This document shows positions 7,435 through 16,841 of a stretch of 64,000 nt of DNA, piece after piece. Source of the DNA: Chitinophaga niabensis (GTDB lineage Bacteria > Bacteroidota > Bacteroidia > Chitinophagales > Chitinophagaceae). Positions within the stretch are counted from its first letter, which is position 1. Every line of letters begins with the position of its first letter. The DNA lies in NCBI GenBank assembly GCA_017849435.1, contig JAFIGY010000009.1:800608-864607 (forward strand), in the 5' to 3' direction. The notes beneath the pieces are model-generated. The model was not told where the DNA came from. It made no database searches and saw only the letters and a program-made list of their open reading frames with translations. Both the position numbers and the translations under genes were made by a program.

Positions 7435-7472
7435 CAACCTATTTAGTCTATAAAAATAATAGGGTTATTGCC

Positions 7473-10400
7473 ATGCGAAACATGTACCAACTGACCCTGC
7501 TTTTGCTTCTAGCCAACCTGACACTATATGCGCAAAGCAGGAAGATCTCCGGTAAGGTAACCGGAGAGAACAACCAGCCATTACCCGGCGTTTCCGTTTA
7601 CATCAAAGGCACCGGAACAGGCACCGCCACCGCGGCCGACGGGAGTTACAGCCTCCAGGTTCCGGACACCGCCACATTACTCACCTTCTCCCAGATCGGG
7701 CTCGAAACGAAGGCCGTGCTCATCGGGGGACAAACTATCATCAACGTATCCCTGCATGCGGCAGACAAACAACTGCAGGAGGTAGTCGTAACCGCACTCG
7801 GCATCTCGCGCAGTAAAAAAGCGCTGGGATACGCCGTACAGGAAGTGCAGAGCGCTGAACTGCAAACACGGCCCACTAACGCACTGGGCGCACTGTCCGG
7901 CAAAGTAGCAGGTCTGCAGGTGATCACTTCCGGTGGTAACATGGGAGGCTCCAGCCGGGTATTGCTGCGGGGCATCAATTCCATCTCGGGGAACAACCAG
8001 CCGCTTTTCGTGATTGACGGGATTACGATCGATAATGCAGACCTGAACACGAAAAGTACAGTGAATGGTTCTGCAGGAAAGGACGTAGGGAACATGATAC
8101 AGGACCTGAACCCGGATGACATCGAAAATGTAAGTGTGTTGAAAGGCCCGTCCGCAGCGGCTTTGTACGGCTCCCGCGCCGCTAACGGTGTGATCGTGAT
8201 CACTACAAAGAAAGGACGCGCAGGTAAGATGTACGATGTAACCATCAATTCCGGCATCGAACTGGAACGCATCACGCGCCTGCCTAAACGCCAGAAACTG
8301 TATGGCGGCGGTAAAAGTAATACCTTCCAGGAAGCCGTGATCAACGGACAAACATACAAACTGGTGGATTATGGTATGGATGAAAGCTGGGGCCCGAAAC
8401 TGGATGGAACACCGGTGCTGCACTGGTATAACCTCGATCCGGAATACGCGGATGATTACCTGAAACCCGCTCCCTGGGCTTATCCCAAGCATGATGTGAC
8501 TTCTTTCTTCCGCACCGGCGTAGCCGCAACCAACAATATTGCTATCAGTGGCGGTGGCGAGAACCAGACGTTCCGGCTTTCTTATACAAACAGGACCGTG
8601 CAGGGCACCGTGCCGAACTCCAGTCTGCAACGTAACACCATCAACTTTTCCGGATCCTCCCGTTTTTCAAAACTGCTGGCCACCGCCAACTTTAACTACG
8701 TGAAAAACAGCAGCACCGGCCGTCCCTGGACGGGCGCTTCTAATCGCAACATCATGCTGGAGGCTTTTCAATGGGGACAGGTACAGGTAGATTATGATAA
8801 GCTTCGCGTGTATAAACGTCCCGATGGAACCCCTCGCGCCTGGAACCGCAACAGTTGGGAAAATACCACGGCCGGCAAAGCCACGAAGTATATCGACAAT
8901 CCCTACTGGTCTGCCTACGAAAGCTATCTCGAAGAAAACCGGGACCGCTTCTACGGCAACATCGGCCTTTCCTATGACGTGAACAGCTGGCTGCAGCTCA
9001 GTTCCAAAGTGAATGCAGATATTTACAATTATCAATACCAGGACCGTATCGCAGTGTTCTCCCGCAGCCAGAGCAATTACACCGAGTATTCCAATACGTT
9101 CAACGAGTTCAACTACGAGTTTCTCGCCAGTGCCAACAAACGTTGGAAAGAATTTTCGCTGACTGCCTATGCAGGTGGCAATATCATGAACCAGAAACGC
9201 CGTATCTCCAACGCCGCCACACAGGGCGGCCTGATCATTCCCGGTTATTACAACCTGAAGAATGCCAACAGTGTGCTCAATGAATCCAACTGGTACCATA
9301 AAAGCATTTACTCCCTCTTCAGCAGCGTGTCCCTCGGATACAAGAATTTCCTGTATCTGGACGGAACCCTGCGGAATGACTGGAGCAGTACCTTGCCGCT
9401 GGACAAAAATTCGTTCGCTTATCCCTCCGTTTCCACCAGTATCATCCTCAGCGAACTGGCGCCTTTCAGGCAGGCGGACTGGCTGAACTTCCTGAAACTC
9501 AGGCTCGGCTGGGCGCAGGTGGGGAACGACACCGATCCTTACCAGCTGCAGCAAGCTTATGAAGCCACGCAGGCTTTCAACGGTAACCCCGGTTACAAAC
9601 TGCCCTCCGTGCTGGCCAACAGGAATCTGAAACCGGAGATCACCAGCTCCTGGGAAACCGGTATCACGGTGAAAGCACTTAAAAATCGTGTGGGCCTCGA
9701 CGTTACTTACTATAACAATAACAGCCGCAACCAGATCATCAACATACCGGTATCTACCGCGCTTGGCTATGAATCCAAATTCATCAATGCCGGCAAGATC
9801 AACAACAAAGGGGTGGAAGTGAACCTGAATGTTGTACCGGTTACCAATCAAAACTTTAACTGGGATGTGAACCTCAACTGGTCCCGGAACATTAACCGGG
9901 TAGTGCGTTTGACGGAAGGAGTGACCAGCTTCCCGCTCACGGACCCCTCTGGTTCGCTGGTGAATCTTGTGGCGAGAGAAGGAGCATCCTACGGGCAATT
10001 GCTGGGATATGATTTTGTGTACGACAAAGATGGAAATAAAGTGATCAATGCAAACGGTACTTACGTCCGTACAGAACAGCTCCGCTCCATCGGCAGTGTG
10101 TTGCCCGATTGGCAATTCGGGATACAGCAGCGGTTTACCTACAAACGCTTCGATGCAGGTGTGCTGGTGGATGGCCGCGTAGGCGGAAAGTTCTTCTCAC
10201 AGACCTACAAGGTAGGTATGCAGGCAGGGATATTGGAACCCACGGCAGCCAATGGAATCCGCGAGAATGGTCTGAAGCTGGATGGTGTGAATGGAGATAT
10301 CACTTTCAAAGCGGATGGTTCTTATACGGTGACGAATACAAAGGCAAATACTACAAGGGTTTCCGCATATGATTGGGCATATGGCTTTTCCAACGGTCCT

Positions 10401-12253: not shown

Positions 12254-12907
12254 TTAGAGTTGTGTCAAATATTGCTCATTGAAATCCAGCAGGGAATCCA
12301 GCTGCAGATCCGCCAGTCCGAACCGTTTATCGTTCCGTTTATGCGGTTCCGGTACTACCACCACTTTCATTCGCGCTGCCTTCGCCGCTATCATGCCGGT
12401 CACGGAGTCCTCAAAGGCCAGGCATTCGAGCGGACTGCTGTTCAGTTCCTGTGCGCAGGCCAGGTAAACGGCGGGGTGCGGTTTGCCATGAGGTTCAAAC
12501 TCTGCAGATATTACGGCGTGAAAGGCTTCCCGGATGTGCAGGTGATCCAATACCGCGTCAATCAGGCGCATGGGAGAGGAGGAGGCGAGGCCTGTTTTGA
12601 AATTGTGTTGCCGGAAGAATTCAAGGATGTAGGAAAGCCCTTCCATCGCCTGTCCGTTCCGCAGGATGTGGGCGGTTACATTTTCTATGATCTCTTCTGT
12701 TACCTGTTCCGCGCTCTTGGCGTTCCATTTAAAGTAATTGTGCCAATAACTCACCACTTCCTTCGTTCTCAGGCCTGTAGTGTGGGATGTGAGCTCGGGG
12801 GTGAGCTCCACACCTACGGACGCGAACACTTCCCGCATCGCGAGGCCCCAAAGCGGCTCGGAGTCGATCAGCAGGCCGTCCATATCAAATATCACCGTAT
12901 TGATCAT
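12254..12907 (-). CDS. hxpB: HAD superfamily phosphatase, HxpB (YniC)-like
   Basis: A 217-residue cytoplasmic sugar-phosphate phosphatase or beta-phosphoglucomutase-type HAD enzyme. Motif I is FDMDGLLIDSEPLW (nucleophile Asp9, acid Asp11), motif II is LASSSP, the motif III lysine is in GKPHPAVYL, and motif IV is FEDSVTGMIAAKAARM. The whole pattern follows E. coli HxpB, a hexitol/2-deoxyglucose phosphatase. The frame is open up to 13015, but a -7 promoter element at 12932-12925 lies inside that extension, so the start at 12907 is preferred. Confidence 0.88.
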   Translation of the reverse strand: MINTVIFDMDGLLIDSEPLWGLAMREVFASVGVELTPELTSHTTGLRTKEVVSYWHNYFKWNAKSAEQVTEEIIENVTAHILRNGQAMEGLSYILEFFRQHNFKTGLASSSPMRLIDAVLDHLHIREAFHAVISAEFEPHGKPHPAVYLACAQELNSSPLECLAFEDSVTGMIAAKAARMKVVVVPEPHKRNDKRFGLADLQLDSLLDFNEQYLTQL

Positions 12908-12924
12908 AAGTCTGTTTTGCGCCG

Positions 12925-12932
12925 CAAAGGTA
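12925..12932 (-). promoter_or_regulatory. -7 promoter element for the HxpB-like gene
   Basis: Minus-strand TACCTTTG matches TAnnTTTG and lies 17 bases before the chosen ATG at 12907. Confidence 0.5.
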
Positions 12933-13064
12933 AGGAAATCAGCCAGATAACGCTGCCGCAGCTGCAGCGTGCGACGCAACGGCGGCCTGACAGCAGTACT
13001 GCAGCCGGGCCCCACCCTTTAGAAATTTTCTAATTTATCCCCCTGTTTTTTTTCAAAAAAAGTT

Positions 13065-13094
13065 TTGTGATTATTGATCCGGTCTCTATCTTTG
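13065..13094 (+). promoter_or_regulatory. promoter of the sulfite reductase / siroheme operon
   Basis: TTG at 13065-13067 and TATCTTTG at 13087-13094 with 19 bases between them. Transcription would begin near 13101, 20 bases before the leader peptide ATG and about 218 bases before the sulfite reductase ATG. Confidence 0.75.
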
Positions 13095-13120
13095 TATTAC
13101 TCTACAAATTCTATAGGAAT

Positions 13121-13186
13121 ATGGGTTATAAAGTATCGATGATGATGAACATGTGTATGTGCTGTTGGGAACACTCAACAGACTAG
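13121..13186 (+). CDS. Cys/Met-rich leader peptide, probable sulfur sensor
   Basis: A 21-codon reading frame (ATG 13121, TAG 13184) placed between the operon promoter and a terminator. It contains six Met and three Cys, most within the stretch MMMNMCMCCW, with the Cys codons at 13154, 13160 and 13163. Such density of sulfur amino acids in front of sulfite reductase is the mark of an attenuation leader that reads the supply of charged Cys-tRNA or Met-tRNA. The stop codon is followed directly by GGAGG (13186-13190), which can pair with the left arm of the terminator. A shorter form could start at one of the ATGs at 13139-13145. The function is inferred; the frame and composition are seen. Confidence 0.65.
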   Translation: MGYKVSMMMNMCMCCWEHSTD

Positions 13187-13190
13187 GAGG
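13185..13190 (+). promoter_or_regulatory. AGGAGG at the leader stop codon: candidate antiterminator arm or Shine-Dalgarno
   Basis: The TAG stop overlaps AGGAGG. GGAGG (13186-13190) is complementary to CCTCC (13235-13239), the left arm of the terminator, so the pairings exclude each other. It also lies 10 bases before an ATG at 13201 that opens a 58-codon frame (13201-13377) with five Cys, overlapping the sulfite reductase start out of frame. Confidence 0.45.
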
Positions 13191-13231
13191 ATTTCTACAT
13201 ATGAAATATCTGTTTTCAGAATCATACTGCG

Positions 13232-13265
13232 AGGCCTCCGACTTGAAACGGGGGTTTTGTTTTTT
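13232..13265 (+). terminator. candidate attenuator terminator in the sulfite reductase leader
   Basis: CCTCCG (13235-13240) pairs with CGGGGG (13249-13254, one T-G wobble) around an 8-base loop, extendable by wobble pairs, followed by TTTTGTTTTTT (13255-13265). An alternative fold pairs AGGCCT (13232-13237) with AGGCCT (13266-13271) and would break it. Lying inside the leader and not at a gene end, it is best read as an attenuator. Confidence 0.6.
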
Positions 13266-13318
13266 AGGCCTGTGCCACAAGTTATGCATACCAATTAATC
13301 ACGAGCAATTCAATTATC

Positions 13319-15433
13319 ATGCAAAGTTTCAGAACCGAACTGGAAAATCCGATCGTAGAAAGAGACATCATTGAACTGGAACAAAAGATCAGGCTGTTCC
13401 GGGAAGGCAAGATGCCGGAAGAGAAATTCCGCAGCCTCCGCCTGGCCAGGGGCGTTTACGGCCAGCGCCAGCAAGGCGTGCAGATGGTGCGCATCAAACT
13501 GCCTTATGGTAAAATGACTTTGCAGCAATGGAAACGTATTGCCGATATCTCCGACGAATATTCCACCGGTAACCTCCACCTCACCACCCGACAGGATATA
13601 CAGATCCACTTCGTATCCCTTGACAGGACGCCTGAGCTCTGGTCTAAACTGGAACTGGACGATATCACGCTCCGCGAAGCCTGTGGTAATACGGTACGCA
13701 ACATCACGGCATCCGATAAGGCCGGCATTGATCCGGAAGAGCCGTTCGATATTACGCCGTATGCGGATGCAGCCTTCCGTTATTTCCTCCGGAACCCGGT
13801 CTGCCAGGACATGGGCCGCAAGTTCAAGATCGCTTTTTCTTCCAGCGACCGGGATACGGCTTTTGCCTTTATGCATGACCTGGGCGTGATCCCCAAGCTG
13901 CGGATCGTGGACGGGAAGGAAGTGCGTGGCTTTAAAGTGCTGGTAGGCGGTGGTCTTGGTGCACAACCATACCTCGCTAAAACGGCTTTTGAGTTCCTGG
14001 AAGCGGATCAGCTGATCCCTTATATTGAAAGCGTGCTCCGCGTGTTTGACCGGTATGGTGAAAGAGCGAGCCGCCATAAAGCCCGTATGAAGTTCCTCAT
14101 CCAGAAGATCGGGATGGAAGAATTTGAACGCCTCGTGAAAGAAGAATATAAAGCGCTCAAAAATAAAACCTATACGGTAGACTACGCCGCCTGGCAGGAG
14201 CCCGAACCTCCGGCCGCGAATGCAGCCTTGCCGGTCTTCACCATCCAGAACCCTCAACGCTTTGAGGCCTGGAGGAAAACAAATGTCTTCGAACAAAAAC
14301 AGAAAGGTTTCTTTGGCGCATACATCCGCGTTCCGCTGGGCAACATCAGCTCCGTGGCATCCCGCAGCCTGCTGGAAAAGCTCCGGCTGGTGATAGCGGA
14401 CGATGTACGCGTGACCGTGAACCAGGGTCTGCTGTTGAAATATATACATCCGGAAAGCCTGCCGTACATTTTCAGCCTGCTGGAAGCGGAAAAGCTGGAC
14501 GCGCCCGGGTTTGACAGCATCGCGGATATTACAGCCTGTCCGGGTACGGATACCTGCAACCTCGGTATCTCCAGCAGCACCGGCATTGCCGCGGCACTGG
14601 AAAGCGTGATCCACGACGAGTTCCCTGACCTTATTTACAATAACGACATCAAAATAAAGATCAGCGGCTGTATGAACTCCTGCGGCCAGCACGGTCTTGC
14701 ACATATCGGTTTCCACGGCTCTTCCCTGAAGAGCGGCGGGAAAGTGCTCCCGGCCCTGCAGGTATTGCTCGGCGGCGGCGTACTGAACGATGGCGCAGGC
14801 CGCGTTGCAGACAAAGTGCTGAAAGTGCCCAGTCGCCGTGGTCCGGATGTATTGCGCACCCTGCTCTACGACTATGAAGCCAATGCGCAAAAAGGAGAAT
14901 TGTTCAATGACTATTACGACCGGCAAGGGGAAAAATACTTTTACGAACTGCTGAAACCTCTGGCGGACCTCAGCTCCATCAGGAATGATGATTTCATAGA
15001 CTGGGGGCAGGCGGAATCTTTCTCCACCGCCATTGGCGTGGGCGAGTGCGCCAGCGTGATCATTGACCTGATCGCTACGCTGCTGTTTGAAGCGGAAGAG
15101 AAACTGGACTGGGCAACCCGCTCCTTTGCGGAGAATGCCTGGGCAGACGGGATCTATCACGCTTACTCCTGTTTCATTCAAACAGCGAAATCGCTGCTGC
15201 TGGATGAGAACGTGAGCTGTAACACCCAGCACGGGATCATCAGCGATTTCGACAAGCATTTTGTGGAAACCGGTCGCTTCCAGGTAGACAACTTCCGCAA
15301 CCTGGTGCTGCAGATTAATCAGCACGAACCTACGGAAAGCTTTGCCAAACAATATTTTCAGCAGGCAAAAGCATTTTATGACAAGGCGCAGCAATACCGG
15401 ACGGAAAAGCTGGACGCTAACGTAAACGCATAA
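13319..15433 (+). CDS. assimilatory sulfite reductase (siroheme / [4Fe-4S]) with C-terminal HEPN-like extension
   Basis: A 704-residue member of the sulfite/nitrite reductase family, which reduces sulfite to sulfide (or nitrite to ammonia) by six electrons. Two ferredoxin-like half-domains and two catalytic half-domains are visible. The first catalytic half has TGNLHLTTRQDIQIH; the second has the cluster/siroheme cysteines Cys407-X5-Cys413 (CPGTDTCNLG) and Cys451-X3-Cys455 (SGCMNSCGQH). About 150 residues after the family core (about 545-704) form an all-helical extension that I read as HEPN-like and that classic CysI lacks. Operon partners cobA and siroheme synthase supply the cofactor. A Cys/Met leader upstream points to sulfite over nitrite as substrate. 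Confidence 0.9.
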   Translation: MQSFRTELENPIVERDIIELEQKIRLFREGKMPEEKFRSLRLARGVYGQRQQGVQMVRIKLPYGKMTLQQWKRIADISDEYSTGNLHLTTRQDIQIHFVSLDRTPELWSKLELDDITLREACGNTVRNITASDKAGIDPEEPFDITPYADAAFRYFLRNPVCQDMGRKFKIAFSSSDRDTAFAFMHDLGVIPKLRIVDGKEVRGFKVLVGGGLGAQPYLAKTAFEFLEADQLIPYIESVLRVFDRYGERASRHKARMKFLIQKIGMEEFERLVKEEYKALKNKTYTVDYAAWQEPEPPAANAALPVFTIQNPQRFEAWRKTNVFEQKQKGFFGAYIRVPLGNISSVASRSLLEKLRLVIADDVRVTVNQGLLLKYIHPESLPYIFSLLEAEKLDAPGFDSIADITACPGTDTCNLGISSSTGIAAALESVIHDEFPDLIYNNDIKIKISGCMNSCGQHGLAHIGFHGSSLKSGGKVLPALQVLLGGGVLNDGAGRVADKVLKVPSRRGPDVLRTLLYDYEANAQKGELFNDYYDRQGEKYFYELLKPLADLSSIRNDDFIDWGQAESFSTAIGVGECASVIIDLIATLLFEAEEKLDWATRSFAENAWADGIYHAYSCFIQTAKSLLLDENVSCNTQHGIISDFDKHFVETGRFQVDNFRNLVLQINQHEPTESFAKQYFQQAKAFYDKAQQYRTEKLDANVNA

Positions 15434-15461: not shown

Positions 15462-16238
15462 ATGCAAACAATACAACCGAAAGTGACGCTGGTAGGCGCG
15501 GGTCCTGGTGACCCGGAACTGATCACTGTAAAAGGTCTGAAGGCAATTCAGAACGCCCGGGTGATCCTGTACGATGCTTTGTCCAACAACGAACTGCTGG
15601 AATATGCACCGCAGAACTGTCTCAAACGCTTTGTAGGCAAACGGGCCGGTATGCATGTTTACACCCAGGCGGAGATCAACCGCATGATCGTGCAATATGC
15701 GCTGACCTATGGCAGCGTGGTGCGCCTGAAAGGCGGTGATTCCTTTGTGTTCGGCCGCGGGCAGGAAGAGCTGGCCGCTGCGCAGCAATATGGAATTGAA
15801 ACGGAAGTGATCCCGGGGGTGAGCAGCGCCATTTCCGTACCGGGGGTGAATAAGATCCCGGTGACGGCGCGCAATGTAAGTGAAGGGTTTTGGGTGATCA
15901 CCGGCACTACGCAGGACGGTAAATTGTCCCGCGATCTGGAATTCGCCATCCAGGCGGATACCACCGTAGTGATTCTGATGGGTATGAGCAAGCTCGATGA
16001 GATTGCTGCCATATACGCCCGGTTGGGTAAAGGTCAGGTGCCGGCGGCTATCATCCAGAACGGTACCCTTCCTACCCAGAAGATCGGCGTGGGCGTGGCC
16101 TCCGAGCTGGGGAACTTTGCGCGGGAACAGGACCTTCGCAACCCCGCTATCATTGTGATCGGCGAGGTGGTACGCTTCCACGAAGCGTTCCAGAATCTGC
16201 AATCCAAACTGGCAGAAGATTATAAACTGGCGGTATAG
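15462..16238 (+). CDS. cobA: uroporphyrinogen-III C-methyltransferase
   Basis: A 258-residue SAM-dependent enzyme that methylates uroporphyrinogen III at C2 and C7 to give precorrin-2, the first step to siroheme. The family signatures are VTLVGAGPGDPELITVKGL near the N-terminus, VVRLKGGDSFVFGRGQEEL at about 86-104, and VIPGVSSAISVPGVNKIPVT. Length is normal for a stand-alone SumT/CobA. It lies 28 bases after sulfite reductase and 18 before the siroheme synthase gene, so siroheme is made together with the enzyme that needs it. Confidence 0.96.
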   Translation: MQTIQPKVTLVGAGPGDPELITVKGLKAIQNARVILYDALSNNELLEYAPQNCLKRFVGKRAGMHVYTQAEINRMIVQYALTYGSVVRLKGGDSFVFGRGQEELAAAQQYGIETEVIPGVSSAISVPGVNKIPVTARNVSEGFWVITGTTQDGKLSRDLEFAIQADTTVVILMGMSKLDEIAAIYARLGKGQVPAAIIQNGTLPTQKIGVGVASELGNFAREQDLRNPAIIVIGEVVRFHEAFQNLQSKLAEDYKLAV

Positions 16239-16256: not shown

Positions 16257-16841
16257 ATGGCGGAAAATCATTTATTCCCGGTGTTCTTTAAACTGGACCA
16301 GTTGCAGGTACTGGTGGTAGGTGGTGGAAACGTGGGCTGCGAGAAGGTGAACGCCATTCTGCAGAACAGTCCGGCCGCAAGGGTCACCGTTGTGGCTACC
16401 TGGTTTTCCCCCGAGCTGGAAACCCTCGCCTCCGGTTTTCCGAATGTAACGCTCGTGCAGAAAGCCTTTTCCTGCGGCGATCTGTTCGGGAAAGACCTGG
16501 TGATTGCGGCCACGGCTGACAAAGAGCTGAATGCCTGCATCTGGGAAAAGGCCAAAGCGAGCAAAGTATTGATCAATGTGGCGGATACCCCCGGGCTCTG
16601 CGATTTTTACCTCGGTTCCGTAGTACAGAAAGGCAGTTTGAAGATCGCTATTTCCACCAACGGTAAATCACCTACCATTGCCAAGCGCCTGAAAGAAGTG
16701 TTGAATGAGGTAGTGCCGGATACGCTGGAGCAGGTATTGCAGCATTTGCATGTGATCCGGGACAGGCTGAAGGGAGATTTTGCGGAAAAAGTGAAGAAGC
16801 TGAATGATCTGACGAGCGTGCTGGTAGGGAAGGAGCGATAA
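16257..16841 (+). CDS. precorrin-2 dehydrogenase / sirohydrochlorin ferrochelatase (siroheme synthase, Met8/CysG-N type)
   Basis: A 194-residue protein for the last two steps of siroheme synthesis: NAD-dependent oxidation of precorrin-2 and iron insertion. The N-terminal Rossmann motif VLVVGGGNVGCEKV is clear, followed by VIAATADKELN, with a catalytic-type Asp in VADTPGLCDFYLGSVVQKG. The small helical C-terminal part carries AISTNGKSPTIAKRLKE. It is the third gene of the sulfite reductase operon and is followed by a terminator. Confidence 0.93.
   Translation: MAENHLFPVFFKLDQLQVLVVGGGNVGCEKVNAILQNSPAARVTVVATWFSPELETLASGFPNVTLVQKAFSCGDLFGKDLVIAATADKELNACIWEKAKASKVLINVADTPGLCDFYLGSVVQKGSLKIAISTNGKSPTIAKRLKEVLNEVVPDTLEQVLQHLHVIRDRLKGDFAEKVKKLNDLTSVLVGKER

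Follow-up and report, generated by a model that had tools for sequence, protein, structure and literature searches.

The trp, his and ilv leaders of Proteobacteria carry control codons in a short leader, have one strand common to terminator and antiterminator, and favour termination when a ribosome is bound at the leader stop codon. Attenuation of the trp/his type is the classical precedent. Short polycysteine leader frames have been described for cys operons of Mycobacterium and Propionibacterium; in the accessible part of that paper they have no conserved terminator hairpins and the authors suggested a role for Rho (PMC1262725). In Flavobacterium psychrophilum, from the same phylum as the organism studied here, "strong clues" were reported that leader peptides attenuate amino-acid operons, the accessible part of the text naming no cysteine case (PMC9723704), and the 5′ UTRs of B. 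thetaiotaomicron contain leader-like sORFs according to the accessible extract (PMC7366714). A term search of the main text of PMC2965389 found no "Bacteroid-" and "cysteine" solely in a reference title, and the accessible part of PMC4833913, which deals with leader genes near start codons, has no "cysteine". The original prediction for the present locus, that of a cysteine attenuator, knew of no such case described in Bacteroidota, and none appears among the literature matches listed, with the proviso that Lopatovskaya et al. 2010 may overlap.

The window, a stretch of 64,000 nucleotides from Chitinophaga niabensis, contains on its + strand, which carries all the features of the leader and operon given below, an ORF at 13319..15433 whose NIR_SIR domains identify it as sulfite reductase (SiR). 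It is followed, after intergenic gaps of 28 and 18 nt respectively, by a cobA-type tetrapyrrole (uroporphyrinogen-III) methylase gene (15462..16238) and a siroheme synthase-type precorrin-2 dehydrogenase gene (16257..16841), both recognised as ORFs with domain matches. The nearest named relatives of this SiR are from Chitinophaga, at no more than 87% identity, and the SiR tree groups it with them. The product of an operon of these enzyme families is sulfide for Cys synthesis. Upstream, TTTTG (13063-13067) and TATCTTTG (13087-13094) form what is presumably a Bacteroidota promoter of the -33/-7 type (13063..13094). By eye, a promoter-like context is also present in 38 Chitinophaga SiR upstreams; a scan of the leader region for sigma-70-type promoters gave no match.

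The leader frame MGYKVSMMMNMCMCCWEHSTD (13121..13186) starts at ATG 13121, is coding to 13183 and stops at TAG 13184-13186. Direct reading bore out, exactly to the base, the predicted positions of this 21-codon frame with six Met and three Cys, of the GGAGG at 13186-13190, which shares one base with the stop codon, and of the CCTCC at 13235-13239. The putative control codons span 13154..13165 (Cys 12 at 13154-13156, Cys 14 at 13160-13162 and Cys 15 at 13163-13165) and have Met codons around them. The CCTCC had been assigned to the left arm of a terminator, and a terminator scan and the covariation of the arms agree on this: an intrinsic terminator lies at 13229..13265, with a stem at 13229-13260, a core of GCCTCCG (13234-13240) against CGGGGGT (13249-13255) and a T run at 13260-13265. 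It is the one terminator in the region 12900-13400, compared with 0.3 ± 0.5 in shuffles. As the MFE z-score of the window is an unremarkable -1.26, the window alone would not prove the element; the relatives do.

The 68 Chitinophaga-type loci, including the window, gave 54 distinct SiR upstream regions, and a terminator-like hairpin with a T run is present in 53/54, one Chitinophaga genome (L100) being without the element. The leaders of these 53 regions have at least two Cys in 47 cases and at least three in 36. The Cys codons follow the reading frame: a leader region has on average 2.5 Cys in frame 0 against 1.3 and 0.5 in the two other frames, and 0.9 stops in frame 0 against 2.0 and 2.1. 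Two or more Cys are found in frame 0 in 47/53 regions, in frame +1 in 23/53 and in the remaining frame in 4/53, and among 37 representatives all 24 TGYTGY pairs are in frame 0. Apart from the start and the Cys and Met residues the peptide diverges, with variable Cys spacing and a length of 18-30 codons (33 representatives counted). What is conserved in the frame is its Cys codons and not its sequence. Six Chitinophaga leaders (L018, L029, L020, L023, L033 and L062) have 0-1 Cys and keep their hairpins; placed on the SiR tree, this low-Cys state requires four gains or losses, and we read it as repeated decay.

The GGAGG was predicted to pair alternatively with CCTCC, and the two strands do co-vary across relatives. 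Pairing analysis placed the 5′ strand of this antiterminator, which begins with GGAGG at the leader stop, at 13186..13204 and the 3′ strand, which includes the CCTCC common to the terminator left arm, at 13222..13239, the latter also from permutations. Among 37 representatives the terminator arms pair better with their own than with swapped partners (-16.7 vs -14.2 kcal/mol, sd 0.27), as do the antiterminator strands (-17.3 vs -15.5 kcal/mol, sd 0.40), with 0/2000 permutations as good in either case. Across 52 anchored Chitinophaga leaders many antiterminator positions vary in their pair type, with both strands changing. The permutation test on the antiterminator in other genera, in which the 5′ strand was sought from 3 nt past the first base of the last Cys codon, gave -10.95 vs -9.12 (sd 0.48) with 1/5000 permutations as good for 23 loci that were not thinned for relatedness.

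The comparison also added an element to the original prediction, a further hairpin that is conserved among relatives. This candidate pause hairpin, P1 (13162..13181), would cover the last Cys codons, its two arms being CTGTTGGG (13162-13169) and CTCAACAG (13174-13181). Its own partners score better than swapped ones (-8.98 vs -8.00, sd 0.31; 2/2000 permutations as good, 33 representatives) and it is kept over the Cys codons. Its last base in the window is 13181, and the antiterminator strand begins at 13186.

The spacing of these parts is that expected from the footprint of a ribosome. Counted from the first base of its codon, the last clustered Cys lies 9-30 nt upstream of the antiterminator strand, and at least 12 nt upstream in 45/46 leaders. 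The stop codon lies -10 to +20 nt from the start of that strand in 50/52 leaders, the exceptions (L023 and L033) both being leaders with 0-1 Cys. These values are partly limited by the search, which sought the antiterminator strand only between 75 and 22 nt upstream of the left arm; L008, without an anchor, was left out of the pair-type and spacing counts. On this geometry the antiterminator strand should be accessible when the ribosome is at the Cys codons and covered when it is at the stop codon.

Taken together, these features suggest that the SiR-cobA-siroheme leader is a ribosome-mediated transcription attenuator responding to starvation for Cys, perhaps also Met, a reading to which we give a probability of roughly 0.85. 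The attenuation proposed in the original prediction is thus supported by a conserved Cys frame, co-varying stems and a fitting stall/stop geometry. RNA polymerase would initiate just upstream of the leader and a ribosome would translate the 21-codon frame. With charged Cys-tRNA (perhaps also Met-tRNA) plentiful, the ribosome would run to the stop codon and cover the GGAGG strand; CCTCC would then pair with CGGGGG and transcription would end in the T run. Under Cys shortage, the ribosome would halt at the clustered Cys codons, some 20 nt upstream, opening P1 and leaving GGAGG free to capture CCTCC while the right arm is still unmade, so that the terminator would form too late and the operon would be read. 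We infer here that the frame is translated, that ribosomes stall in it, that transcription ends early and in which direction the operon responds; the frame, its Cys codons, the terminator, the antiterminator, the covariation, the geometry and the breadth described below are all seen on the sequence.

In common with the classical attenuators, the locus has clustered codons for the amino acid of its operon, an intrinsic terminator ahead of its first gene, an antiterminator that excludes the terminator through the shared CCTCC, and the stall/stop geometry. It differs from the trp, his and ilv leaders in its amino acid, which is Cys (perhaps with Met), in its phylum, Bacteroidota, and in apparently being a three-strand switch, P1 and the antiterminator having no strand in common in the window. 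It follows that an untranslated leader would here be ON rather than OFF. The actinobacterial polycysteine leaders likewise have Cys runs before cys genes, but an intrinsic terminator and a co-varying antiterminator are found only here, as far as the accessible part of the description of those leaders goes (PMC1262725). Assignment to that class of polycysteine uORF, which has no intrinsic terminator, was rejected as a terminator is present at this locus. As far as our searches show, this is a known kind of attenuator with a new amino acid and a new phylum.

We folded 46 leaders at equilibrium with the ribosome represented as a mask from -17 to +11 (our own choice). With the right arm still to be transcribed, the antiterminator forms to 0.96 with the ribosome at the Cys codons, 0.63 with it at the stop codon and 0.91 with no ribosome; with the ribosome at the stop codon and the right arm unmade, the left arm is still paired upstream at more than 0.5 in 38/46 leaders. 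At full length the terminator wins in both states (mean 0.89 with the ribosome at Cys vs 0.98 at the stop codon), and the position of the ribosome shifts it by more than 0.1 in only 10/46 leaders. As equilibrium folding does not show a switch in the terminator for most of the leaders, the switch would have to be kinetic.

The element is not confined to Chitinophaga. Among 80 named loci, a Cys-cluster frame with a terminator precedes SiR in 33/38 of the Chitinophaga group, which includes a MAG labelled Flavihumibacter (L017) that falls inside Chitinophaga in the SiR tree, and in 19/42 others, of which some may be chance (the duplex is weak in L049 and there is none in L047). The same combination was found in 4/372 upstreams of other ORFs and in 4/800 dinucleotide shuffles. 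For the Cys-cluster frame alone the values were 33/38 and 21/42 before SiR, against 32/372 for the ORF controls and 64/800 for the shuffles; the control ORFs, of at least 180 codons and taken from those loci, are mechanical ORFs and not all real genes. The original prediction had named the comparison of relatives as its check and a lack of conservation as the ground for abandoning it; both a conserved Cys frame and co-varying stems are present. Between families the leaders are wholly different, and the Cys runs and the architecture are kept, as in L037 MFTPSFICCCKSCCWLVTCG, L065 MENRILNMTKAMMCCCIDCNR and L154 MTRNVNTRMMGCCCCMMGISSCLDL. Cys-run cores such as MMGCCCCMMG (L154), MMCCCCCMM (L155) and CACCCCTCMM (L157) occur before SiR with terminators, the L157 leader CAACACCCCTCMM being from another class of the phylum.

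About half of the named SiR loci outside the Chitinophaga group are without the element. A phylum sample of 36 matches, which gave 34 upstreams after exclusion of the own genome and of G368 (a match cut at the first bases of its contig), had a Cys cluster with a terminator in only six by eye (L127, L129, L131, L154, L155 and L157). Of the 51 upstreams from outside the Chitinophaga set in the duplex test, among them eight of the 34 phylum-sample rows picked after viewing the upstreams, 22 had no Cys-cluster frame, three no terminator and three no duplex. In one family (f5, probably Flavobacteriaceae, a placement that is inferred) SiR is often found behind cysN by eye, and 14 longer SiR upstream stretches (11 from f5, one from f8 and two from f2) yielded two flagged Cys frames with a terminator-like match, both away from an operon start: one inside a long ORF and the other more than 2 kb before the operon. 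The pattern match ATGTGCATGTGCTGTTGG in G159 was rejected as a sulfur leader, since on the opposite strand a glyoxalase-like frame (named by eye) has its start there; it pointed to the Tyr leaders described below. Within the own genome, the cysHDN operon has no such Cys leader by eye, nor has the stretch before a cysE-like match a Cys leader with a terminator by eye, the latter being a weak check as the match probably starts inside the gene. The Cys leader element is, on these counts, apparently widespread and far from universal.

Two further kinds of Cys run were noticed. Pontibacter loci L058, L063, L056 and L049 have Cys runs near a stop codon (MRCC*, MRCCSAYACC*, MPACCCCSQPAEVMCAR* and ...YTCCC*), and the Pontibacter-type SiR loci have no clear terminator; these leaders are perhaps a translational or Rho version. 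On the reverse strand of L173, from another family of the same order, a frame seen by eye ends in seven consecutive Cys codons about 285 nt before a putative cysH, again with no clear terminator.

The abundance of Met raises a wider form of the Cys attenuator, compatible with it, in which the leader would sense sulfur amino acids in general, the Met codons beside Cys would also be control codons and Met shortage would also give read-through. With the start excluded, Met has a share of 10.4% in 33 Chitinophaga leaders and of 8.2% in 22 leaders from elsewhere, compared with 1.6% in seven window proteins. It is clustered beside Cys: 54/343 residues within four of a Cys are Met vs 22/293 elsewhere in the Chitinophaga leaders, and 40/234 vs 4/214 in the 22 others, counts that are not independent, given related rows and the trimming of some of these 22 to a later Met. 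The leader may hence be a sensor for sulfur amino acids rather than for Cys alone. Sulfide feeds Cys and, via direct sulfhydrylation, Met, which makes a joint sensor plausible, and metY- and metH-type genes carry the same operator-like motif as SiR (see below). Against this, the leaders of L031, L032, L034 and L038 have only their start Met, and ATG-rich text could have other causes. We consider joint sensing possible and put it forward tentatively.

The operator-like motif TATTACTCTACAAATTCTATAGG (13095..13117) lies directly downstream of the -7 box, is kept in Chitinophaga SiR upstreams by eye and is probably a transcription-factor site. Its pattern, with up to three mismatches, has five sites in the own genome including that of SiR, vs one for a reversed control pattern. 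Three of the others precede genes, one metY-like (PF01053), one metH-type (PF02574) and one SusC, and the fourth is at L116, which adjoins no obvious sulfur gene. Sequences of the TAGTCTA...TAGACTA type are found at L114 1501-1523 (metY-type), L117 1501-1523 (metH-type) and L118 about 2144-2172 (cysH-type), the sequence before cysH being a related one seen by eye. In the own genome an Rrf2 regulator gene (PF02082, E 2.6e-36) lies near cysHDN. This suggests that a putative sulfur regulator acts at initiation besides the attenuator; no report of Rrf2 and sulfur control in Bacteroidetes was found by title among the literature matches listed. The SusC site is in the window itself (7441-7463, three mismatches), just before the gene at 7473, and this gene and its SusD partner, which ends near the SiR operon, are possibly an uptake pair for a sulfur source.

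If the frame were no sensor, a protein, for example of the Rrf2 type, or a metabolite binding RNA or DNA could control the terminator. The six Chitinophaga leaders that keep their hairpins with 0-1 Cys would fit this, as would the overlap of the operator-like motif with the start region and the Rrf2 gene near cysHDN. Such control is nevertheless unlikely, as it leaves the in-frame Cys clusters (47/53, and in other families) and the stall/stop spacing unexplained, and a DNA-binding factor could work at initiation alongside the attenuator. No known riboswitch, T-box or other RNA family was matched at the Rfam gathering score; up to E 1 the single match was to a snoRNA model (E 0.17), under its gathering score.

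It is very unlikely that a second small frame uses GGAGG as its ribosome binding site, or that control is translational. An ATG does follow GGAGG at 13201 in the window, and in 21/37 representatives some ATG is found no more than about 20 nt from a GGAG-like stretch, but the frames are of varying sequence and range from 2 to 47 aa, no ATG is present there in 13 of the 34 with such a stretch, and 3/37 are without the stretch; a second conserved frame was rejected on this inconsistency. Bacteroidota rarely use Shine-Dalgarno sites, which also counts against this role for GGAGG, and translational control does not explain a terminator-like hairpin and T run in nearly all regions. That the Cys-rich frame encodes a functional, for example metal-binding, small protein, as its CxCC-like patterns and conserved position might suggest, is scarcely credible given that the leader sequence diverges among Chitinophaga, with poor conservation beyond the start and Cys/Met and with variable length and Cys spacing.

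A similar arrangement with another amino acid was seen by eye. Tyr-rich leaders (MSAQLFISIASPATTAAYYYAYFTCYGSE; MHSFSPEMINCSNYYYYYLNPARLGAGS) with strong terminator-like hairpins next to them are present in L112 (1616-1763) and in L176, L177 and L178, and such leaders precede a phenylalanine 4-hydroxylase-type gene (PF00351) in three of the five genomes that have the gene among 29 searched. They form a candidate tyrosine attenuator; no comparable one was found by title among the literature matches listed.

For the phylum as a whole we offer, again tentatively, the generalisation that Bacteroidota may widely use terminator-based leader attenuators reading Cys and Met for sulfite reduction, rebuilt repeatedly with unrelated sequence, which would imply ribosomes close behind RNA polymerase in a largely Shine-Dalgarno-free phylum. 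No work on transcription-translation coupling in Bacteroidetes was found by title among the literature matches listed. As an attenuator needs a ribosome close behind RNA polymerase, the SiR leader would allow a direct genetic test of such coupling in Bacteroidota. If the proposed reading is true, this is a complete cysteine attenuator, with leader, antiterminator and terminator, working in several families of the phylum, and it may explain the small Cys-rich frames found upstream of SiR in many genomes.
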